A DNA stretch of 64,000 bases from Nitratireductor kimnyeongensis (lineage in GTDB: Bacteria; Pseudomonadota; Alphaproteobacteria; Rhizobiales; Rhizobiaceae), in the NCBI RefSeq assembly GCF_019891395.1, contig NZ_CP078143.1:806001-870000 (forward strand). Direction: 5' to 3'. The translations under genes were made by a program, and so were the position numbers. A model generated the notes under the pieces. The model ran no database searches and was not told where the DNA came from. It saw nothing but the letters and a program-made list of their open reading frames with translations. Shown here piece after piece: positions 21,573-42,442 of the stretch. Positions within the stretch are counted from its first letter, which is position 1; every line of letters begins with the position of its first letter.

Positions 21573-22625
21573 ATGAATTTCGCCTCCGACAACTGGGCCG
21601 GCGCCCATCCGCAAATCGCTGAAGCGCTCACAAACAATGCAGGCGGCTATGCATCGGCCTATGGGACAGGCGATCTGGACAAACAGGTAGAGCGAATCTT
21701 CTGTGACGTCTTCGAGCGCGACGTGGCGGTTTTCTTCGTCGGGACCGGTACGGCTGCCAATAGCCTTTCACTGGCCTGGGCTGCCAGGCCGGGCGGGGTC
21801 GCCTTTTGTCATGCGGAAGCCCACGCTATCGAAGATGAGGGCGGGGCGCCGGAATACCTGACCGGCGGCGCGCGTCTGAAAGGGGTCGCGGGACGATTGG
21901 GACGCATGGATCCGAACGCGCTCGGCGCTGCGATCCGCGAGCACCCGGCCGAATTCGTGCATGCGGGACAACCCATGGCCGCTTCCATCACACAGGCCAC
22001 CGAGATCGGCACGCTCTACTCTCTCGACGACATCGAGACGATTGCCGGCATCTGTCGTGAAGCGGACATCCCACTGCATCTCGATGGCGCCCGATTTGCC
22101 AACGCACTTGTGGCTCTCGACACCACGCCGGCACAGATGACGTGGAAACGTGGTGTCGACATCGTATCCTTCGGCGGCACCAAGAATGGCTGCTGGTGCG
22201 CGGAGGCCATCGTGGTGCTCGATCCCGCGAAGGTCGGGCAAATGCATTTTCTGCGCAAGCGAGCCGCGCAGCTCTTTTCCAAGTCGCGCTTCATCGCCTC
22301 ACAGTTCGAAGCCTATTTCAGGGACGATTTGTGGCTCAAAACGGCGCGACACGCCAACGCTATGGCCCGCGAACTCGCCACTGCGCTTTCCGCAGCAGAG
22401 GGGGTGCGCCTTGCCTGGCAACCTCAAGCGAACGAGGTGTTTGCACTCATGTCTGCCGAGAAGGCAAAAGCCCTTCAGGCCTCCGGCGCCCGTTTTTACC
22501 CCTGGAAACCGCCATTGTCTTTCGCCAGCGAGATCAGGGATGGAGACGTACTCCATCGCTTCGTAACCAGCTTCGCAACCGAGCCTTCTGAAATCACGCA
22601 ATTTGCAGACCTGCTGCAAGGCTGA
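21573..22625 (+). CDS. ltaE: Low-specificity L-threonine aldolase family protein
   Basis: 350 aa, PLP-dependent fold type I. The PLP-Lys lies in DIVSFGGTKNGCW (about residue 200); the N-terminus MNFASDNWAGAHPQI matches the family's start; HLDGARFANALVAL carries the conserved Asp. It splits L-threonine or allo-threonine to glycine and acetaldehyde in the cytoplasm, feeding glycine and one-carbon pools. Monocistronic; 168 bp separate it from the bufferin operon. Beta-eliminating lyase relatives are a less likely alternative. Confidence 0.9.
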   Translation: MNFASDNWAGAHPQIAEALTNNAGGYASAYGTGDLDKQVERIFCDVFERDVAVFFVGTGTAANSLSLAWAARPGGVAFCHAEAHAIEDEGGAPEYLTGGARLKGVAGRLGRMDPNALGAAIREHPAEFVHAGQPMAASITQATEIGTLYSLDDIETIAGICREADIPLHLDGARFANALVALDTTPAQMTWKRGVDIVSFGGTKNGCWCAEAIVVLDPAKVGQMHFLRKRAAQLFSKSRFIASQFEAYFRDDLWLKTARHANAMARELATALSAAEGVRLAWQPQANEVFALMSAEKAKALQASGARFYPWKPPLSFASEIRDGDVLHRFVTSFATEPSEITQFADLLQG

Positions 22626-22793
22626 GCTCACGCGCGCGTGCCTGACATAACGACGCTGCGATAAACACGCTTTCACGCCCATGTGATGGTGGCTCGCGCG
22701 CGCTTGATTTCCAAGTGAAGTGTCCCTCTGAAAAAACGGTATGTGCCGGAGCGGAGATCCGGCTTCGACAAGACCTCGAGAGGAGACCATCCC

Positions 22794-23099
22794 ATGTCCA
22801 CGAAAACCGCACTGACCGCTGCCTATATCGCAGGCACAGTTGCAGCGGCCCTGTCTGCAAGCACTTTTGCTACCACCACAGCCGCCCAGGCGCAGGAAAA
22901 AGAGAAATGCTATGGCGTGTCCATGGCGGGCAAGAATGATTGTGCGGCCGGTCCCGGCACCACCTGCGCCGGCACATCGAAGGTCGATTATCAGGGCAAT
23001 GCCTGGACTTATGTGGATTCCGGCACCTGCACCACGATGGAGCTTCCTGGCGACCGCATGGGTTCGCTTGAGCCACTCGATCGCGATCTGCCGTCCTGA
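22794..23099 (+). CDS. bufA: Bufferin precursor, BufA/DUF2282 family
   Basis: 101 aa from ATG 22794 (AGGAGA upstream). A Sec-type signal peptide (about 1-34, ending AQAQ) precedes a mature part of about 65 residues with four Cys at 39, 50, 58 and 79 ([25 protein letters not shown]). This is the DUF2282 pattern of bufferins, exported metallophore peptides whose Cys are converted by an MNIO enzyme to thiooxazole-type heterocycles that bind copper. bufB follows after 44 bp. The family assignment is from pattern recognition; modification and metal are inferred. Confidence 0.9.
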
Positions 23100-23143
23100 G
23101 CGGCCTGACAGCATCCTGAACCCACAATGCCGGGAGGCGCCCG

Positions 23144-24088
23144 ATGCTACGCGAAGTCAAACTTCCATCCGCAGACGACAGTCGCTTCCCGGCATTCCAT
23201 CCGGCCGGCAGAGCCGGTGCAAGCTTCAAGCCGCAACATTTCGATGCGATCACTGCGGAGCCCGCCTCCGTAGGGTTCCTTGAGATCCATGCAGAAAACT
23301 ATATGGGCGCGGGCGGTCCGCCTCATGCCGTCCTGACCGAAATCCGCAAACTGCTCCCCGTCTCGCTGCACGGTGTCTGCATGTCCATTGGGGGTCGGGA
23401 CCCGCTCGATCCCGAGCATCTGTCCCGCTTCGCCAGTCTCGTCGGACGCTACGAACCCTTCAAGGTGTCCGAACATCTTGCATGGTCGACCCATGACGAT
23501 GTGTTTTTCAACGATCTCCTGCCCCTGCCCTATACCGACGAGACGCTGGCGCGTGTGTGCGAGCACATCGATCAGGTGCAGGAAGCCATCGGCAGACCCA
23601 TGCTGCTTGAAAACCCGTCAACCTATGTTCTCTTCTCCGAGTCCAACTGGAAGGAGACCGATTTCCTGCGTGAAATCGTGAAACGCACGGGTTGCGGCCT
23701 GCTGCTCGACATCAACAATGTGTTCGTTTCGGCCACCAATCACGGCTTCAGCGCCACCGAGTATCTGGCCGAGTTTCCGCTCGAACATGTGGGCGAGATA
23801 CATCTCGCCGGCCATGACGAGCAGAAAGATGACGAGGGCGCACCGCTCCTGATCGACAGCCATGACCGGCCCGTCGCGGATCCGGTGTGGAGCCTTTACG
23901 AGACGGTGATCGAACAATGCGGTCCGATCGACACACTTGTTGAATGGGATTCGGACGTACCCGACTGGCCAATCCTGCGCTCGGAGGCCATCGCCGCTGA
24001 ACGCATCCTCGATCGCCATCGTGGTCGCAATCGTGGTCGCAATCGTGGTCACCGGGCATCAGTGAAACCGCATGAGCTCCAATCCTGA
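23144..24088 (+). CDS. bufB: MNIO-family (DUF692) bufferin-maturation enzyme
   Basis: 314 aa TIM-barrel protein of the multinuclear non-heme iron oxidative enzyme family. The metal-ligand blocks are all present: [67 protein letters not shown] and LVEWDSDVP. It would oxidise Cys of BufA in the cytoplasm before export. The C-terminus ends in an unusual Arg/Asn-rich tail coded by a 12-bp tandem repeat (24018-24050). It overlaps bufC by 17 bp. Confidence 0.93.
24018..24053. repeat. 12-bp tandem repeat in the 3' end of bufB
   Basis: Unit ATCGTGGTCGCA repeated twice, then a partial third copy (ATCGTGGTC). It encodes the basic tail [10 protein letters not shown]. In-frame copy changes would lengthen or shorten the tail without breaking the gene. 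Confidence 0.85.
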
Positions 24089-24887
24089 GATGGCCGTCGA
24101 ACGCAAACCTGCGACCTTTGACGTCGCGTTTGGCTCGGTTCTGCTGGATCCTGAGTGCGCAACTCCACAGGGCGTTTCCGGCCCACATGGCAAGGCCGCG
24201 AACAAGCGTTTCAATGTCTATCGCAACAATGTCACTCACAGTCTCGTCACGGCGCTGACCGAGATTTTCCCTACGGTGATGCAAATTCTCGGTGCGGACA
24301 ACTTTCGCATGATCGCGCGAGACTTCATCCGCGCACGGCCCCCGCGCTCACGGCTCGTTTTCGAATATGGACGCGACTTCGCTGCCTTTCTCGCCGACTA
24401 CCAACCCATCCGCCATCTTCAATATCTGCCTGACGTCGCCCGGCTCGAGCGCGCCTGGCTGGATGCCTTTCATGCAGCCGACCAAGCCCCGCTCGCCGCT
24501 GAGGATCTGAGTGCGCTGCCACCGGAAGCTCTGGCAGATGCGGTTTTCGTGCCGCATCCGGCCACCAGGCTCATCTCGTCCATCTATGCGGTTCACACGA
24601 TTTTCACCGCGCATCGACAAGGACCGATGCCCGAACGCATCAATGCCGGCATTGCTGAGGCGGCTCTTGTGACGCGACCGGGCCTTGAAGTGCAGGTACG
24701 TGGAATCGACCACGGCCAGTTTCTGTTTGTCGATGCACTCAGCCGGGGAGTGCCTCTTCAACGGGCCGCCGGCCGGTCGATCGAAGCTGAACCGGACTTC
24801 GACTTTCCAGCTGCCATCGCCTTGACCATTGAAAGCGGCGCTTTTGCAGGTTGCCGTGCCAGCAACGAGAGTGACGAAAAGGATTAG
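24072..24887 (+). CDS. bufC: BufC/DUF2063 partner protein of the MNIO enzyme
   Basis: 271 aa. The N-terminal DUF2063 domain shows [20 protein letters not shown] followed by FPTVMQILG (about residues 50-80), a signature of HvfC/BufC proteins that resembles a DNA-binding fold but serves as precursor-recognition partner of the DUF692 enzyme. The C-terminal part is less conserved. It overlaps the bufB end by 17 bp and ends 5 bp before the DoxX gene, so expression is tightly coupled. Confidence 0.9.
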
Positions 24888-24892
24888 GCCCC

Positions 24893-25462
24893 GTGTTTCA
24901 GACAATCGAGGCGCTGCATGCGCGTGTATTCTCGACCGTGGAGCGGATGCTCGATGGATGGTTCCTGGGCCTGGTGGCCCGCTTTTCATTTCTCGCCGTC
25001 CTCTATTTGTACTTTCTCAACTCCGCACGTACGAAGGTCGGAGACGGCTTTTTCGGCTTCTTTCACATCGCTGACGGCGCCTATTACCAGATCGCGCTGC
25101 CGGCCGTGGAAGCGGCAGGCGGCAACGTCTCAGCCGTATCATTCATCCCATGGGGGCTCATTGTCTGGCTGGGGACATATTCCGAGTTCGTGTTGCCATT
25201 GTTGATCGTGCTCGGACTGCTCACCCGCATCGCCGCACTTGGCATGATCGGTTTCGTGCTTGTCCAGTCCTATGTCGACATCGTGGTTCACAATGTAGGT
25301 TCCGAGACGGCAGGCGCCTGGTTCGACCGCTTTTCAGACGGGCTGATCTGGGACCAGCGCACGCTCTGGGTTTTTCTGCTTCTCTATCTGGCGGTCAAGG
25401 GTGCGGGCCTGGTCTCGCTCGACGCGTTCCTTTCGCATCGCCGCGCGATTTCAAAGGTCTGA
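24893..25462 (+). CDS. bufD: DoxX family membrane protein of the bufferin operon
   Basis: 189 aa, GTG start at 24893 with AAAAGGATT upstream. Four hydrophobic segments (FSFLAVLYLYFLNSA; a long one around residue 90; IAALGMIGFVLVQSYVDIVV; LWVFLLLYLAVKGAG) match DoxX/DoxD-type integral membrane proteins. DoxX members are frequent last genes of buf and related MNIO operons; the precise role, perhaps redox or handling of the modified peptide at the membrane, is unknown. Five bp after bufC. Confidence 0.87.
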   Translation: MFQTIEALHARVFSTVERMLDGWFLGLVARFSFLAVLYLYFLNSARTKVGDGFFGFFHIADGAYYQIALPAVEAAGGNVSAVSFIPWGLIVWLGTYSEFVLPLLIVLGLLTRIAALGMIGFVLVQSYVDIVVHNVGSETAGAWFDRFSDGLIWDQRTLWVFLLLYLAVKGAGLVSLDAFLSHRRAISKV

Positions 25463-25468
25463 ACCAAA

Positions 25469-25491
25469 GGCGGCGCCACAAGGGCGCCGCC
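25469..25491 (+). terminator. Hairpin at the end of the buf operon
   Basis: Perfect 9-bp stem GGCGGCGCC/GGCGCCGCC with a 5-nt loop, 6 bp after the DoxX stop. There is no T tract, so it may only pause or protect the 3' end. Confidence 0.6.
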
Positions 25492-25496
25492 GACAG

Positions 25497-25570
25497 CTCA
25501 AAGAGCATTGCGATGGTTTGGAACATCGGACCGAAAGTTGGAGACCGGTGTCGGATTATCCCAATGTCCC
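25497..25570. repeat. Degenerate short palindromic repeat typical of rhizobial intergenic DNA
   Basis: Contains GAACATCGGACCG (25521-25533) and an imperfect inverted half ending TCGGATTATCCCAATG. It resembles small dispersed palindromes common between genes in Phyllobacteriaceae. The same 13-mer recurs at 37650-37662. It sits between the convergent buf and hsp20 genes. Confidence 0.4.
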
Positions 25571-25619
25571 GTTTACGGTTCAGATCGTCCTTTGTGTGTC
25601 CGGATGGTCACGCGGCGAT

Positions 25620-26078
25620 CTAGTGGGCCTTGGCCTCGATCTCCTTCGCATCCTTCACCGAAACGATGGGGATCCGGCGCGGCTTCATCTCCTCGGGGAT
25701 GTTGCGTGTGAGCTCGATATGAAGCAGGCCATTCTCCAGATTGGCACCCGACACCTCAACGTGATCGGCAAGCTGGAACCGGCGCTCGAAGCTGCGTGAG
25801 GCTATGCCGCGATAAAGAAGCTCGCCGCCATCTTTCTGCTCCGCGCTCTTCTCACCCTTGATGGTCAGCACGTTGCGGTGAGCCTCGATGGAAATGTCCT
25901 CGTCGCCAAATCCGGCGACCGCCATCGAAATTCGGTAGGAATCCTCACCTGTGCGCTCGATATTGTAGGGTGGATAGGTCTGGCCATTCTCCGGCTGCCC
26001 GAGCGTGTCGAGCATCGAGAAAAGCCGATCGAAGCCCACGGTAGAGCGATAAAGAGGGGAAAAATCAACATGACGCAT
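25620..26078 (-). CDS. Small heat-shock protein Hsp20 (IbpA family)
   Basis: 152 aa. N-terminal arm (residues about 1-35), alpha-crystallin domain (about 37-135; ERTGEDSYRISMAVAGFGDE onward, IASRSFERRFQLAD, LENGLLHIELTRNIPEE with the conserved I/V-x-I tail later in RIPIV). An ATP-independent holdase that binds unfolding proteins in the cytoplasm. Its upstream region combines a sigma-32-type promoter and a ROSE-like thermometer leader. Convergent with the buf operon. Confidence 0.95.
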   Translation of the reverse strand: MRHVDFSPLYRSTVGFDRLFSMLDTLGQPENGQTYPPYNIERTGEDSYRISMAVAGFGDEDISIEAHRNVLTIKGEKSAEQKDGGELLYRGIASRSFERRFQLADHVEVSGANLENGLLHIELTRNIPEEMKPRRIPIVSVKDAKEIEAKAH

Positions 26079-28375: not shown

Positions 28376-28462
28376 CAGGCAGTTTATCTGCCGAATGCCC
28401 TTTTTGGGCGTTTCCTCCCTAGACTTTTGACCGTGTCGCCGCTGCGATACGGTCTTTTTTTT
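28376..28462 (+). ncRNA. mmgR: MmgR/alpha-r8 (suhB-type) small RNA
   Basis: About 87 nt between a TTGACA promoter and a strong terminator. Order of elements: hairpin GGCAG/CTGCC (28378-28392), hairpin GCCC/GGGC with a U loop (28397-28409), the unpaired motif TTTCCTCCCT (28411-28420), AGACTTTT, then the terminator stem. The UUUCCUCCCU core between stems is the hallmark of the alpha-r8 family (MmgR of Sinorhizobium, Rfam name suhB), which acts in trans by pairing; in Sinorhizobium it limits polyhydroxybutyrate accumulation. Identified from memory of the family, not by a covariance search. Confidence 0.8.
28429..28462 (+). terminator. Terminator of the MmgR-like sRNA
   Basis: 11-bp stem GACCGTGTCGC/GCGATACGGTC (one G-T pair), 4-nt loop, followed by eight T. 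It serves no + strand CDS, which supports a free-standing sRNA gene. Confidence 0.9.
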
Positions 28463-28517
28463 CGCTCTATGCCGGAAACTGAAGCCGGAATATGCTGCAC
28501 TGCCGCATACTTACGGA

Positions 28518-29592: not shown

Positions 29593-29955
29593 ATGGCACG
29601 GATTCTCCTGGCGGAAGACGATAACGATATGCGGCGCTTTCTCGTGAAGGCGCTGGAACGGGCAGGCTACGAAGTGGTGGACTTCGACAATGGCGCTGGC
29701 GCCTATGACAGGCTGCGTGAGGAGCCCTTTTCTCTCCTTTTGACTGACATCGTGATGCCGGAAATGGACGGCATCGAGCTGGCAAGGCGCGCGACGGAAA
29801 TCGACCCCGACCTCAAGGTGATGTTCATCACCGGTTTCGCCGCTGTCGCGCTGAACCCGGATTCAAACGCTCCGCAGGATGCAAAAGTCCTGTCCAAGCC
29901 CTTCCACCTGCGCGATCTCGTGAACGAGGTGGAGAAGCTTTTGCAGGCGGCCTGA
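29593..29955 (+). CDS. cpdR: Cell-cycle response regulator CpdR
   Basis: 120-aa stand-alone receiver domain. Acid pair in LLAEDDNDMRRFL, phospho-acceptor Asp52 in LLLTDIVMPEMDG, conserved Thr in MFITGFAA and Lys in VLSKPFHLRDLV. CpdR is phosphorylated through the CckA-ChpT relay; unphosphorylated CpdR localises ClpXP and primes degradation of substrates such as CtrA, coordinating the alphaproteobacterial cell cycle. Sequence and single-domain form fit CpdR closely. Monocistronic. Confidence 0.92.
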   Translation: MARILLAEDDNDMRRFLVKALERAGYEVVDFDNGAGAYDRLREEPFSLLLTDIVMPEMDGIELARRATEIDPDLKVMFITGFAAVALNPDSNAPQDAKVLSKPFHLRDLVNEVEKLLQAA

Positions 29956-33359: not shown

Positions 33360-34532
33360 ATGTCTTTTTGGAAACAGGCAATTGCCTGCCTCATCGTTCT
33401 TATCGCCGCAGCATTCGTCTGGTTTCTGTACTACCCAGGCGCGCAGGATGTCTTGGCGCGCACAGGGCTTGTCTCAACTGGCGCAGGCTCTACACAGACA
33501 ACCGCCGAGCGCGGTCCGCAGCGGGGTGGCCGTGGCGGAGGTGGTGCGCCAGGACCGGTCGTGACTGCACCAATCACGCACGCCACGATCAATGACCGGC
33601 TCACCGCTATCGGCACCGGCCGGGCCCGGCGCTCGGTCGTCGTCAATCCGCTCACCGCTGGCACTCTGGTCGAGATCGCGGTCGCTTCCGGAGCGGACGT
33701 AAAGACTGGCGACCTTATCGCCAAGCTCGATTCTGACGCCGAGGAAATCGCGCTCGATCGCGCCGTCATCGCCCTGGATGACGCCAACGCGACGCTCGAG
33801 CGCATCAAGGCGCTGCGCACGTCCAATACCGTGAGCGTGGTGCAGCAGAACGAAGCCGAGCTTGCCTTGCGCAACGCCGAGCTGGCGAAACGCGAGGCTG
33901 AACTCGCGCTTGAACGGCGCTCCATCACCGCTCCGATCGACGGGACGGTGGGCATTCTTCCCATCTCCGCCGGCAGCTATGTAACGAGCAGCACGGAAAT
34001 CGCCAGCATAGACGACCGGTCGCAAATTCTGGTGGATTTCTGGATTCCCGAGCGTTACGCCGGATTGGTCGATATCGGCTCGCCACTGACGGCCGTTTCC
34101 GTCGCCCGCGCATCTTCGGTTCACGAAGGCGAAATAAGTGCGATTGACAACCGCATCGACCCGGAAAGCCGAACACTGCGCATCGAGGGGCGCATCGACA
34201 ATCCCGACGACCGGTTGCGCGCCGGCATGGCCTTTACCATCTCCATGCGCTTCCCCGGTGAGACCTACCCGGCCATCGACCCTCTCGCCATTCAGTGGAG
34301 CTCCGACGGGCCTTTCGTCTGGGCTGTGGAAGACGGTACGGCCCGCCAGAAACCGGTACGCATCGTGCAACGCAATGCGGACAGCGTGCTTGTTGACGCC
34401 GAGTTCGACGAGAACGCCCTCGTTGTCACCCAGGGCATTCACAACGTGCGGGAGGGCTCTCCCGTTGAAACGGCCGGCAATCCGGCCAACGCCGGCGCCA
34501 GGCAGGCCAACGCGGGAGGATCCGCGTCATGA
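33360..34532 (+). CDS. RND efflux system periplasmic adaptor (HlyD/MFP family)
   Basis: 390 aa. One N-terminal membrane anchor (about 7-25), a Gly/Arg-rich stretch (GPQRGGRGGGGAPGPV), then lipoyl halves (VVVNPLTAGTLVEIAV ... RSITAPIDGTVGILPISAG) flanking a coiled coil (about 125-185), a beta-barrel and a membrane-proximal domain. It links the inner-membrane pump to an outer-membrane channel. Its stop overlaps the RND start (ATGA). No TetR regulator or TolC-like gene is adjacent. Confidence 0.92.
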   Translation: MSFWKQAIACLIVLIAAAFVWFLYYPGAQDVLARTGLVSTGAGSTQTTAERGPQRGGRGGGGAPGPVVTAPITHATINDRLTAIGTGRARRSVVVNPLTAGTLVEIAVASGADVKTGDLIAKLDSDAEEIALDRAVIALDDANATLERIKALRTSNTVSVVQQNEAELALRNAELAKREAELALERRSITAPIDGTVGILPISAGSYVTSSTEIASIDDRSQILVDFWIPERYAGLVDIGSPLTAVSVARASSVHEGEISAIDNRIDPESRTLRIEGRIDNPDDRLRAGMAFTISMRFPGETYPAIDPLAIQWSSDGPFVWAVEDGTARQKPVRIVQRNADSVLVDAEFDENALVVTQGIHNVREGSPVETAGNPANAGARQANAGGSAS

Positions 34533-37500
34533 AGGAAACGCTTCAGAACGCCCAGACCGGCATCACCGCTCTTTTTGTCCGCCGCCCGGTCCTTGCCTTT
34601 GTATTCAATACGCTGATTGCAGTTGCAGGTCTTGCGGCGCTTTTCGGCATCGAGGTCCGTGAACTGCCCGACGTCGATCGTCCCGTCATCACCGTCTCCA
34701 CCGATTTCTCCGGCGCCGCCGCCGAAACGATGGACCGAGAAGTCACGGCGATGATCGAAGGCGCTGCAGCCCGTGTTTCCGGCGTGGTGGCGATATCTTC
34801 AGACTCCTCCTATGGCCGCAGCCGGGTGACTGTGGAGTTCAGCGACAACGTCAACCTGGATACAGCCGCTTCCGATCTGCGCGATGCGGTAAGCCGCATC
34901 CAGAACAGTCTTCCCGATGATGCCGACGCGCCGCGCATCATCAAATCCGACAATGACGCGCAGGCGGTCATGCGGATTGCACTCACCTCCGTCAGCCTAC
35001 CCGTACAGCAACTCACGACCCTGGTGGAAGATGAAGTCGTCGATGCGTTTTCGGCCGTGCCGGGGGTTGCCGACGTTCAGGTTTATGGCGACCGAACGGA
35101 AATCTTCCGCGTCGATATCGACCAGACCAAGCTCTCAAGCATGGGGCTGACGGTCGCCGATGTTTCCAAGGCGCTTGACACTGTCGCTTTCGACACTCCG
35201 GCGGGCTCCCTCAGCAACACGACACAGGACCTGACGGTACGCGCCACAGCCGCCATCTCGACACCGCAAGAGTTCGAAGCAATCTATCTCAAGGACAATG
35301 TCCGCCTGGGAGAGGTGGCGACCGTGACCCTTGGCGGTGATTTGGGGGAAAGCCAGCTGCGGGCCAACGGCCGCACCGGCATCGGACTGGGCATCGTGCG
35401 CCAGGCTCAATCGAACACGCTCGAGATCTCCACCGGCGTCCGCAAGGCGGTGGAAGAAGTGCGCGCAATTTTGCCTGAAGGTGTCGACATCGAGGTGACC
35501 AGCGATGACGCGACCTTCATCAATGGCGCCATTCACGAGGTTGAGATCGCACTGTTGATCTCCGTAACGGTCGTGCTTCTGGTGATCTTCATCTTTCTGC
35601 GCGACGTCCGTGCGACGATCATACCGGGTCTTGCCATTCCGGTGGCGCTGATCGGCACGCTGGCCACCATTTATCTCACCGGCTTTTCCATCAACATCCT
35701 GACCCTTCTTGCCCTCGTTCTGGCGACTGGCCTTGTGGTGGACGACGCCATCGTGGTTCTGGAGAACATCGTGCGCCGGCGCAATGAAGGCATGGGCGCG
35801 CGCGCTGCCGCCGTGCTCGGCACGCAGGAGGTCTTCTTCGCGGTTCTGGCAACGACAGCCACGCTTATCGCCGTCTTCGTTCCCATCTCCTTCCTCCCCG
35901 GACAGGCTGGCGGCCTTTTCAAGGAATTCGGCTTCGTGCTGGCCATGGCCGTCTTCCTGTCCTCGATTGTAGCGCTATCGCTATGCCCGATGCTCGCCTC
36001 CCGCATGCTGGCCTCGCACCCCGAAGGGGAAGCACAGAAAGAGGGCGGTGCCGGGTCGGGCACCGGCCGGGTCCTGTCCGCGCTGTATCGGCGCTGCCTG
36101 CAGGCCTGCCTCAACGCGCCTGCCGTTGTGGTGGTGATTTCTGTGCTGTTTGCTGCCGCTTCCTACGGTGCCTTCGGCTTCATCAAATCCGAGATCACGC
36201 CGAACGAGGATCGTTCGCTCGCCTTCATGCGCGTTTCGGCTCCGCAAGGGGTCAGCCTTGACTACTTTGCCGAGCGAATGCGCCGCATCGAAACGCTGAT
36301 AGAGCCCTTGCGCGACAGCGGCGAGGTGGTCAGCACATTCTCGATAGCCGGGCGCGGCGCCTCCAACAGCGGCTTTCTCGTGCTGCAACTTGCCGACTGG
36401 GAGAACCGCGAGCGCAGCCAGCAGGAAATCGTTGCCGATATCTCCGCCCGTGTACGCAATGAGCCGGGTGTTCGCGCTTTCGTCTTTCAGCCGAACAGTC
36501 TGGGCATTCGTGGCGCTGGCAACGGCCTCAGTTTCGCGATTGCCGGCAACAATTACGCCAAACTGACGGAGACCGCCGAGAAGATCGTCGCCGCCATGGA
36601 GGAGGATCCGAGTTTCCGCCAGGCCCGGCTCTCCGATGACACGACACAACCCCAGCTTTCGATCGCGATCGACCGCGACCGCGCCTTCGATCTCGGGATC
36701 GATATCGACGGACTTGGCAACACGATCCAGGCGATGCTCGATGGCCGCAAGATCGGCTCGGTCTTCATCGACGATCGCAGCGTGGACGTGAAACTGGTCT
36801 CGACCACGAACCCGGTCAATGATCCAACCGATCTGGAGAACATCTACATCAAGGCTGGTGACGGTCGCTTTGTGCCGTTGTCCGTTATTGCAACGCTCCA
36901 GGAGAAGGCGGTCCCGCCCTCCCTCTCGCGCGAGGACCAGTTGCGCTCCGTGGGCGTCAACGCTGCCCTCGGCAATGTCGCCCTCGGCGAAGCATATGAA
37001 CGCGCACAGGCGATCGCCGAACCGTTGCTCGAACCCGGCATGCGGCTCGTGCCGCTCGGCGAGGCGGCCGCACTCGGCGAAACCGCCAATTCGATGTTGA
37101 TCATTTTCGGCTTCGCGCTGGTCATCATCCTCCTTGTGCTCGCCGCCCAGTTCGAGAGCTTCACCAGCGCGGTCATCATCATGGCAACAGTACCGCTCGG
37201 GCTCGCCTGTGCTGTCTTCGCGATGCTGCTGACGGGCACCAGCCTCAATGTCTACAGCCAGATCGGCCTCGTCCTTCTGGTTGGCATCATGGCCAAGAAC
37301 GGAATTCTCATCGTCGAGTTCGCCAATCAGCTGCGTGATCGGGGGATGGGTGTCCGCCAGGCCATTGAAGAGGCATCGCTGATCCGTCTGCGTCCGGTCG
37401 CCATGACGATGATCTGCACCATCGTCGGCGGGGTACCGTTGGTGCTTGCAAGCGGCGCGGGCGCGGAAGCGCGTGTCGCTCTTGGCTGGGTGATCGTGGG

Positions 37501-37651
37501 CGGGCTTGGCCTTTCCACATTGTCGACCCTTTTCCTGACCCCGGTGGCTTATCTGCTGCTTGGCCGGTTCATTACCCCGAAAGTGGAAGAAGAAGAAAGG
37601 CTGGAGCGCGAGCTTCAACACGCATCGCGGATCGGTGGCAAGCTGTCCTGA
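34529..37651 (+). CDS. RND (HAE-1/AcrB-type) multidrug efflux permease
   Basis: 1040 aa, full length. Helix 1 is RPVLAFVFNTLIAVAGLAAL; proton-relay Asp405 and Asp406 lie in GLVVDDAIVVLENIVRR in TM4; C-terminal half has GIMAKNGILIVEFANQLRD and PVAMTMICTIVGGVPLVLAS. Two large periplasmic loops follow TM1 and TM7. It exports drugs or hydrophobic compounds using the proton gradient. Translationally coupled to the adaptor gene upstream. Confidence 0.96.
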   Translation: MKETLQNAQTGITALFVRRPVLAFVFNTLIAVAGLAALFGIEVRELPDVDRPVITVSTDFSGAAAETMDREVTAMIEGAAARVSGVVAISSDSSYGRSRVTVEFSDNVNLDTAASDLRDAVSRIQNSLPDDADAPRIIKSDNDAQAVMRIALTSVSLPVQQLTTLVEDEVVDAFSAVPGVADVQVYGDRTEIFRVDIDQTKLSSMGLTVADVSKALDTVAFDTPAGSLSNTTQDLTVRATAAISTPQEFEAIYLKDNVRLGEVATVTLGGDLGESQLRANGRTGIGLGIVRQAQSNTLEISTGVRKAVEEVRAILPEGVDIEVTSDDATFINGAIHEVEIALLISVTVVLLVIFIFLRDVRATIIPGLAIPVALIGTLATIYLTGFSINILTLLALVLATGLVVDDAIVVLENIVRRRNEGMGARAAAVLGTQEVFFAVLATTATLIAVFVPISFLPGQAGGLFKEFGFVLAMAVFLSSIVALSLCPMLASRMLASHPEGEAQKEGGAGSGTGRVLSALYRRCLQACLNAPAVVVVISVLFAAASYGAFGFIKSEITPNEDRSLAFMRVSAPQGVSLDYFAERMRRIETLIEPLRDSGEVVSTFSIAGRGASNSGFLVLQLADWENRERSQQEIVADISARVRNEPGVRAFVFQPNSLGIRGAGNGLSFAIAGNNYAKLTETAEKIVAAMEEDPSFRQARLSDDTTQPQLSIAIDRDRAFDLGIDIDGLGNTIQAMLDGRKIGSVFIDDRSVDVKLVSTTNPVNDPTDLENIYIKAGDGRFVPLSVIATLQEKAVPPSLSREDQLRSVGVNAALGNVALGEAYERAQAIAEPLLEPGMRLVPLGEAAALGETANSMLIIFGFALVIILLVLAAQFESFTSAVIIMATVPLGLACAVFAMLLTGTSLNVYSQIGLVLLVGIMAKNGILIVEFANQLRDRGMGVRQAIEEASLIRLRPVAMTMICTIVGGVPLVLASGAGAEARVALGWVIVGGLGLSTLSTLFLTPVAYLLLGRFITPKVEEEERLERELQHASRIGGKLS

Positions 37652-41413: not shown

Positions 41414-42442
41414 TCAGACGACTCCGCATGCCCGAACAAGCTTGAGAAGGCGGGGCAGCGAGGGCTTCGTGTTCATCGCGCACCAGGTCTCACGCGTTTC
41501 CCCCCCATAGCTTTCCTTATGTCTTGCGAGCGATTGCGTGGGATAGACGAGCTTTTGTGCGATCGGATTGGTGTAGATGAACCGGAATGCGCGGCGGGTC
41601 AGCCAATCCTTCTCGAACTCCTGATCCTCAATCTTGTGAAATGGCATGAGACCCAGATAAAGCTTCGGCACGCCTTCAGCCTGAAACGTTTCAACAGCAT
41701 TGCGGACGAGAAAATATGCCGCCAGCGGATCCGTATCGGGCAACCAGCGCCGCGTGGCCGAGAGGTAGCCCATCAGCTTGCCGTCTTCATATAACGGATC
41801 GAAGAAGGCGAAGGCGAGCGGCTGGTCATTCCCGTCCAGAATGAAAAACTTTCGGACATCGGGTTCGTCACGCAACTGGATCGGACGCACGAGAAAGGAA
41901 AGCTCGCGGCGCTTCGTGGTGCGGGTGCGCCGCCAGCCAAGGGAGATATCCTCGACCTGTTCCGGCTGCAGCGAGGCCAGGGGAACTTCGGCAACGCGGC
42001 ACCCCATGCGGGTAAAACGGTTCGTCGCCGTCCGGAAACTACGTTTGGAAGGCCCGGCGAAACTATAGGTTTCGAGATCGATCAGGCTCTCGATACCAAG
42101 CGCATTGACGAAGAACCCCTTCGACGAAAGAAGTTCCACCATAGGCCGGGAGACCTGCCAGAAGGTCACGTCTTTCTTTGAAGCGACAAACGCATCCAGA
42201 AGCGCCGGCCAAAACTCTCGCGGGGCAAGTGGATCGGCCAACGCATAGGCTGTGCGCCCCACCATGCGGTACGCGATCACACCATCTTCATTGCCGAAAT
42301 ACCGCATTCCCGGCTGATGCGCGACCGAATAGGCGAGCACGAAACATCCGTGCCGCTGGAGAAGCGCATGGCGCTGTTTATCGGTGAGAAGAGCGTTGTC
42401 GCTCAGACGATCGAAATTTGACAAGCGAGCTATCTGGTTCAC
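41414..42442 (-). CDS. DUF2156 (MprF C-terminal-like acyltransferase) protein
   Basis: 342 aa, no membrane helices. Similar in layout to the GNAT-like LPG-synthase domain of MprF: QRHGCFVLAYSVAHQPGMRY, FGNEDGVIAYRMVGRTAYAL, ADPLAPREFWPALLDAF and YFLVRNAVETFQAEGVPKLY. MprF enzymes transfer aminoacyl groups to phosphatidylglycerol; soluble relatives have other acyl acceptors. The acceptor here is unknown. Same strand as betT, 213 bp upstream of it. Confidence 0.77.
   Translation of the reverse strand: MNQIARLSNFDRLSDNALLTDKQRHALLQRHGCFVLAYSVAHQPGMRYFGNEDGVIAYRMVGRTAYALADPLAPREFWPALLDAFVASKKDVTFWQVSRPMVELLSSKGFFVNALGIESLIDLETYSFAGPSKRSFRTATNRFTRMGCRVAEVPLASLQPEQVEDISLGWRRTRTTKRRELSFLVRPIQLRDEPDVRKFFILDGNDQPLAFAFFDPLYEDGKLMGYLSATRRWLPDTDPLAAYFLVRNAVETFQAEGVPKLYLGLMPFHKIEDQEFEKDWLTRRAFRFIYTNPIAQKLVYPTQSLARHKESYGGETRETWCAMNTKPSLPRLLKLVRACGVV

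Follow-up and report, generated by a model that had tools for sequence, protein, structure and literature searches.

In a 64-kb stretch of a Nitratireductor genome (hereafter the window; C1:806001-870000 of an assembly of 4.05 Mb in two contigs), four tightly packed genes on the same strand, bufA, bufB, bufC and bufD (22794-25462, +), encode a bufferin system whose promoter belongs to a distinct conserved class, other than the sigmaF type. Bufferins are a recently recognised, large family of copper-binding peptides, and in the excerpts of the literature cited here sigmaF/NrsF (RpoE7) is the only regulator named for such alphaproteobacterial operons. On the whole we favour the reading that bufABCD is a standard Buf1 operon, free of sigmaF/NrsF, that would be activated by the CenKR two-component system. 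The new part of this reading is regulatory, namely a distinct promoter class that is partly predicted by published CenR sites; the protein part is already known.

The bufABCD operon and the sigmaF/NrsF system

The operon comprises the following genes.
22794..23099, + strand: bufA, DUF2282 bufferin precursor, 101 amino acids (aa); ATG start, Shine-Dalgarno-like GAGAGGAG; PF10048, 87.1 bits (cut-off 22.4)
23144..24088, + strand: bufB, MNIO enzyme, 314 aa; PF05114, 344.4 bits (cut-off 25)
24072..24887, + strand: bufC, DUF2063 partner with a C-terminal RRE-like domain, 271 aa; PF09836, 78.8 bits (cut-off 27.2)
24893..25462, + strand: bufD, DoxX-family membrane protein, 189 aa; GTG start, 5 bp 3' of bufC; PF07681, 30.6 bits (cut-off 23.6)

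An earlier note on this DNA had read the region as a complete bufABCD operon with a four-Cys DUF2282 precursor, a DUF692 MNIO enzyme with its metal-ligand blocks, a DUF2063 partner and a DoxX protein, and this was borne out on each testable feature, whether by Pfam, NCBIfam, aligned residues or structure model. Profile search places the small protein in DUF2282, and its cysteines stand at positions 39, 50, 58 and 79; by eye, its N-terminus resembles a signal peptide, with a charged start, a hydrophobic stretch and an AQA motif near the end. BufB also matches the NCBIfam model MNIO_BufB (380.4 bits against a cut-off of 310), and alignment by eye shows the ligand-type EN, DxxN, HxxG, DxH and E blocks that it has in common with the solved MNIOs 3bww, TglH and MbnB. 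Its best named matches are from Nitratireductor sp. B36 (91%), isolate pb3 (88%), N. aquimarinus (86%) and N. aquibiodomus (85%). A 12-bp tandem repeat of 3.2 copies (TCGCAATCGTGG, window 24013-24050), close to the 3' terminus of bufB, encodes an RGRN-type tail, the length of which may vary without a shift of frame. The start of bufC overlaps the end of bufB by 17 bp, and the predicted structure of BufC (predicted local distance difference test, pLDDT, 86.2) resembles TglI (8hi7, 8hci) and NGO1945 (3dee), with weak likeness to MbnC and to the RRE protein TbiB1.

Genome-wide there is one MNIO match, bufB, and one DUF2282 match, bufA. BufA exceeds the cut-off of no NCBIfam model; the Buf2 bufferin type (NCBIfam BufA2) was ruled out, with BufA at 20.7 bits against a cut-off of 60, as was the oxazolin (HvfABC) type, with scores of 217.4 against 360 for HvfB and 43.8 against 142 for HvfC. 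Buf1 clusters are described as having a DUF2282, MNIO, DUF2063 and DoxX core, four cysteines in the precursor and an expected 5-thiooxazole (PMC12452194), and the protein parts of the Nitratireductor operon show no difference from such clusters as the excerpts of that paper portray them. We therefore have almost no doubt that this is a bufferin operon of the Buf1 type, of an ordinary and already published kind.

Two well-documented relatives illustrate how such operons are otherwise controlled. In Caulobacter, CC3254-3257 (DUF2282, DUF692, DUF2063, DoxX) and CC2907-2905 belong to the sigmaF regulon (PMC3511200, PMC8224329); in the portions of these papers at hand the operons share with bufABC the precursor, enzyme and partner families as well as their order, CC3257 likewise being a DoxX protein, but they come with sigF-nrsF, a GTAACC-N16-CGAA promoter and induction by Cu, Cr and Cd, whereas the Nitratireductor locus is without both the regulators and the promoter. 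In Sinorhizobium meliloti, SMb20530-20527 is a target of RpoE7 (ECF16) with a GTAAC..CGAA promoter (PMC6180224), and the excerpted listing gives the same enzyme and partner families, as DUF692 and DUF2063.

NrsF (PF06532) was not found anywhere in the Nitratireductor genome, with a positive Caulobacter control, and a genome-wide search found no orthologue of SigF (ECF16), the best extracytoplasmic function (ECF) match reaching 46 bits at 29% identity. Among 60 relatives searched, NrsF exceeded its cut-off in nine, and SigF matches of 88.9-381 bits occurred in exactly those nine; the best SigF match in relatives lacking NrsF was 57.5 bits. Moreover, the GTAACC-N16-CGAA promoter was not found before bufA (22626-22793, up to two mismatches), and a sigmaF-type promoter for bufA was rejected, since nothing in that interval matches. 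The earlier observation that no ECF sigma/anti-sigma pair lies close by thus extends to the genome as a whole, and the accompanying suggestion that the inducer may differ gains support from the missing system and from a promoter of another conserved class. That bufABCD is independent of sigmaF/NrsF is a conclusion we hold with great confidence.

The bufA promoter and its class among relatives

Three overlapping or adjacent elements precede bufA.
22673..22687, + strand: CenR-type site A, TCACGCCCATGTGAT, a TCAC-N6-GTGA inverted repeat; matrix score 14.82; TCAC and GTGA arms kept in 10/10 genus genomes
22694..22708, + strand: CenR-type site B, TCGCGCGCGCTTGAT; matrix score 12.2; 21 bp past site A, its right arm being the start of the box
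22704..22718, + strand: the box, TTGATTTCCAAGTGA, which is also a TGA-N8-TGA direct repeat; 90 bp before bufA; invariant in 10/10 genus genomes

In an alignment of these 10 genomes, the invariant block GCGCTTGATTTCCAAGTGA lies about 85-90 bp before bufA with the TCAC..GTGA repeat 5' of it, and the intergenic DNA flanking the box has otherwise diverged, with insertions and deletions. Relative to the box, CenR-type half-sites are spaced at about 10-11 bp (-31, -21, -10, 0 and +11), steps that we infer to match what is expected of an OmpR-family regulator. The box consensus is TTGATTTCCAAkTGA across 39 distinct promoters; as TTGATTT was the criterion for choosing them, those seven positions are fixed. 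An exact box occurs once in the genome, at bufA; with up to two mismatches there are 14 matches, against one for the reversed pattern. The frames around these 14 were viewed by eye and gave no second convincing promoter copy, and a box-defined regulon elsewhere in the genome was rejected on this view. Searches for other signals gave two terminator-like hairpins in 22400-25800, which is below the shuffled mean, and no Rfam match, riboswitch or other RNA, in 22600-25700 up to E = 1.

The core of the box could also be read as part of a promoter, with TTGATTTCC serving as the -35 of a different alternative sigma factor whose weak -10 would lie at about +23 to +29; the upstream repeats would then carry little weight. 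TTGATTTCC lies close to where the other class has its sigmaF -35, which would suit this explanation, as would the over-representation of T, T, G and A at +23, +25, +26 and +29 and the presence of at least four ECF-like sigma factors in the genome. The conserved 15 bp, together with half-sites reaching out to -31, nevertheless exceed the length of a -35 element, and a single exact copy per genome is unusual for a sigma-factor element; we consider this explanation unlikely.

To place the promoter among its relatives, two overlapping sets of loci were compiled. The named set held 80 loci with BufB, 79 of which gave bufA by pattern, and 80 promoters; all 80 named BufA have four cysteines, a count that is partly so by construction because the bufA search pattern itself demands three of the four. 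Of these promoters, 47 are sigmaF-like, 31 are box-like and two are neither, with none being both; the box class was defined by slightly relaxed patterns, and 27 of its loci carry a strict TTGATTT. The second set drew on 60 relatives (38 with DUF2282) and 249 genomes of the order (at least 132 with DUF2282), and comprised 158 loci, 149 of them usable and nine without a promoter, with 151 promoters from 143 genomes. A genome was taken as NrsF-bearing on a match over cut-off, and in the order-wide set no more than 12 first-look candidates were scored for each genome, so an NrsF could be missed. On this basis the sigmaF promoter was found in 31 of the 53 promoters of NrsF-bearing genomes versus none of 98 in the others, and the box, at up to three mismatches, in 41 of those 98 versus one of the 53; shuffled promoters gave rates of 0.005 and 0.002. 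The single exception comes from G093, a genome with at least four DUF2282 matches. Fisher tests on these class counts ignore relatedness, and the box is not universal, since 57 of the 98 promoters from genomes without NrsF carry neither element. As an aside on the precursors, close tandem pairs of DUF2282 genes were seen in G282, G085, G133, G106, G172, G216, G259 and G266, among the matches listed, where a single MNIO may serve two precursors.

The two classes also differ in their surroundings. Outside the Nitratireductor operon lie the following neighbours.
21573..22625, + strand: upstream neighbour, PF01212 beta-eliminating lyase (Pfam), threonine-aldolase-like
25620..26078, - strand: downstream convergent neighbour, Hsp20 family, PF00011

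Among the named loci (tblastn, more than 60 bits), the threonine-aldolase-like gene is near 28/31 of the box class, Hsp20 near 29/31 and a close BufD at 23/31, versus 0/47 of the sigmaF class in each case; the sigmaF-class loci, unlike that of Nitratireductor, thus lack this neighbourhood, and 23 of the 47 have SigF and 16 have NrsF nearby. The shared neighbours indicate that most box-class loci descend from a single inherited locus, and this gives some footing to the idea that the conserved upstream block reflects shared ancestry and has no function. The box, however, is invariant in the genus while its flanks have diverged with insertions and deletions, and it persists in other genera and families, which leaves a functionless block very improbable. 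We consider it highly likely that the box and its upstream repeats form a functional regulatory site. One locus of the genus has a different arrangement: in Nitratireductor indicus C115 (L074, 3747-6885), bufB, bufC, bufD and Hsp20 are present, but upstream no bufA, bufA promoter or threonine-aldolase-like gene was found. By eye, that upstream region holds frames resembling a DNA cytosine methyltransferase and a Phd antitoxin, which suggests that the bufA region was replaced by an inserted island.

CenR and other candidate regulators

Sites of CenR, a response regulator of envelope stress, have been reported in Rhodobacter sphaeroides as TGA-N8-TGA, with 31 sites and tandem half-sites (PMC9275681), and at S. 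meliloti srlA as TCAC-N6-GTGA, with electrophoretic mobility shift and mutational support (PMC9561847). We built a matrix from these published sites only (31 from R. sphaeroides and four from S. meliloti), which together read T[CG][AG]C-N6-[GT]TGA. In the 64-kb window, on both strands, its top score falls on site A (22673), with a narrow lead over 14.79 inside bufC, and three of the six hits of at least 12 lie at the bufA promoter, one of which is site A read on the opposite strand; of the remaining three, bufC contains two and the third is at 42277. No score of at least 12 was found in the upstreams of 37 window open reading frames (ORFs) of at least 200 aa, a set to which the shorter bufA does not belong.

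The same signal extends to the relatives. When all 35 sites are used, the background 95th percentile is exceeded by 59.7% of 149 promoters; 300 column-permuted matrices average 6.7%, with 24.8% as the highest value. A matrix from the R. sphaeroides sites only was applied to 114 less redundant promoters, with the threshold set at the 95th percentile among the upstreams of 584 other ORFs, and 63 passed. None of 1000 column-permuted matrices passes more than 22, and in 200 rounds of shuffling the promoters the highest count was nine. Both classes contribute, with 17/23 box-class and 19/26 sigmaF-class promoters passing. In the box class, all 31 named promoters have the left arm of site B, T..C at -10 (the right arm belongs to the box by construction), and positions -31 and -32 together account for 21 repeat starts in this group. 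Of the 47 sigmaF-class promoters, 46 have a repeat that begins 24-26 bp ahead of the -35 (25 bp in 27, 26 bp in 17 and 24 bp in two), where the one nearest 25 bp was taken if several lay 14-60 bp before the promoter; this fixed phase suggests joint action. The sigmaF-class repeats (e.g., L096, L100 and L115) tend to TCACGAA..CGTG, a stricter palindrome than the published CenR sites, which makes a second factor conceivable in that class.

The genome encodes 11 OmpR-type regulators over cut-off. One of these, L157 (near C1:1446312), has 227 aa with D55, L95, K105 and E159, and S. meliloti CenR has the same length and landmark residues (PMC9561847), on which basis it is the likely candidate for CenR. 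Joining the missing sigmaF/NrsF to the CenR-type half-site array leads to the proposal that the CenKR two-component system would activate bufABCD through that array. As excerpted, promoters under CenR control in R. sphaeroides (PMC9275681) and at srlA of S. meliloti (PMC9561847) have TCAC-N6-GTGA-type repeats near the promoter, like bufA, which differs from them in having two tandem repeats and a strict TTGATTTCCAAkTGA box, its sites being predictions from sequence. Among the 20 papers listed, of 27 found by a literature search, none links CenR or CenK by term occurrence with bufferin, DUF692, DUF2282 or NrsF.

Several observations weigh against this proposal. CenR was named from site similarity and landmark residues alone, and only weak repeats (9.3 and 7.8) precede the CenR-like gene, for which reason autoregulation of that gene was rejected. 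Chance hits of at least 12 occur at 42277 and twice within bufC (14.79 at 24235 on the minus strand and 12.7 at 24593 on the plus strand). Among representative promoters the R. sphaeroides matrix passes only 23/48 of those from genomes without NrsF that lack the box and only 4/17 of those from NrsF-bearing genomes that lack a sigmaF match; 40/114 promoters pass on the other strand, and, the matrix being nearly palindromic, strand lends little support. The box alone scores low as a CenR site (TGATTTCCAAGTGAA, 3.9), so the case for CenR is carried by the upstream repeats and site B. The box-class promoters, coming mostly from one inherited locus, are not independent of one another. Finally, no sigma-70-type consensus promoter was found in 22400-25800.

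The box may instead be bound by another OmpR-family regulator or a further factor with similar TCAC/GTGA half-sites, perhaps a direct copper sensor, for which CenR would be a mere look-alike. The number of OmpR-type regulators leaves room for such a factor, as do a box that is longer and stricter than the published CenR sites and low in score by itself, and the stricter palindrome of the sigmaF-class repeats. Set against this, the half-site letters and spacing agree with two published sets of CenR sites, and ChvI, the other regulator whose motif was compared, does not fit: it was rejected on its reported GCC-N8-GCC (S. meliloti) and TTGC-N3-GCAA (Caulobacter) motifs. We regard a look-alike factor as a real, if lesser, possibility, and the identification of CenR as the regulator of the bufA promoter, read from its predicted sites, as an evenly poised call. 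More tentatively still, bufferin operons across the order that includes Nitratireductor and the rhizobia may belong to the CenKR regulon, with a CenR-only array and the TTGATTTCCAAkTGA box in sigmaF-less lineages and a CenR site 24-26 bp before the sigmaF promoter in sigmaF lineages, such that peptide output would follow the condition of the envelope as well as copper.

Peptide maturation, other window features and significance

The likely fate of BufA can be sketched by analogy. In the Buf1 model only the two central cysteines are modified and the outer two form a disulphide (PMC12452194); in these terms the central cysteines here would be 50 and 58 and the outer ones 39 and 79. BufA would be synthesised with a Sec signal peptide, and cytoplasmic oxidation of Cys 50 and Cys 58 by BufB and its partner BufC would most likely yield 5-thiooxazoles. 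After export, Cys 39 and Cys 79 would form a disulphide, and the peptide would tie up surplus copper in the periplasm, with BufD (DoxX) playing a putative accessory role, membrane or redox. Judging from its relatives, BufA is probably modified at cysteine and probably binds copper. Under CenKR control the peptide would join the envelope-stress response, which may or may not include copper sensing itself. The name captophorins has lately been proposed for bufferins together with related peptides (PMC13097082).

Elsewhere in the window we observed an Rfam suhB/mmgR small RNA (28390-28469, +; 64.5 bits against a gathering threshold of 41), a stand-alone response-regulator receiver domain of about 120 aa (29593-29955, +), and a gene pair for an HlyD-family adaptor and an AcrB-type resistance-nodulation-division (RND) pump (33360-37651, +).

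If sigmaF-less relatives do place their bufferins under an essential envelope two-component system, this would offer a direct and cheap test of bufferin induction. It would also suggest that the CenKR regulon may have a metal-related branch, and hint at how one and the same promoter position has been rewired between lineages.

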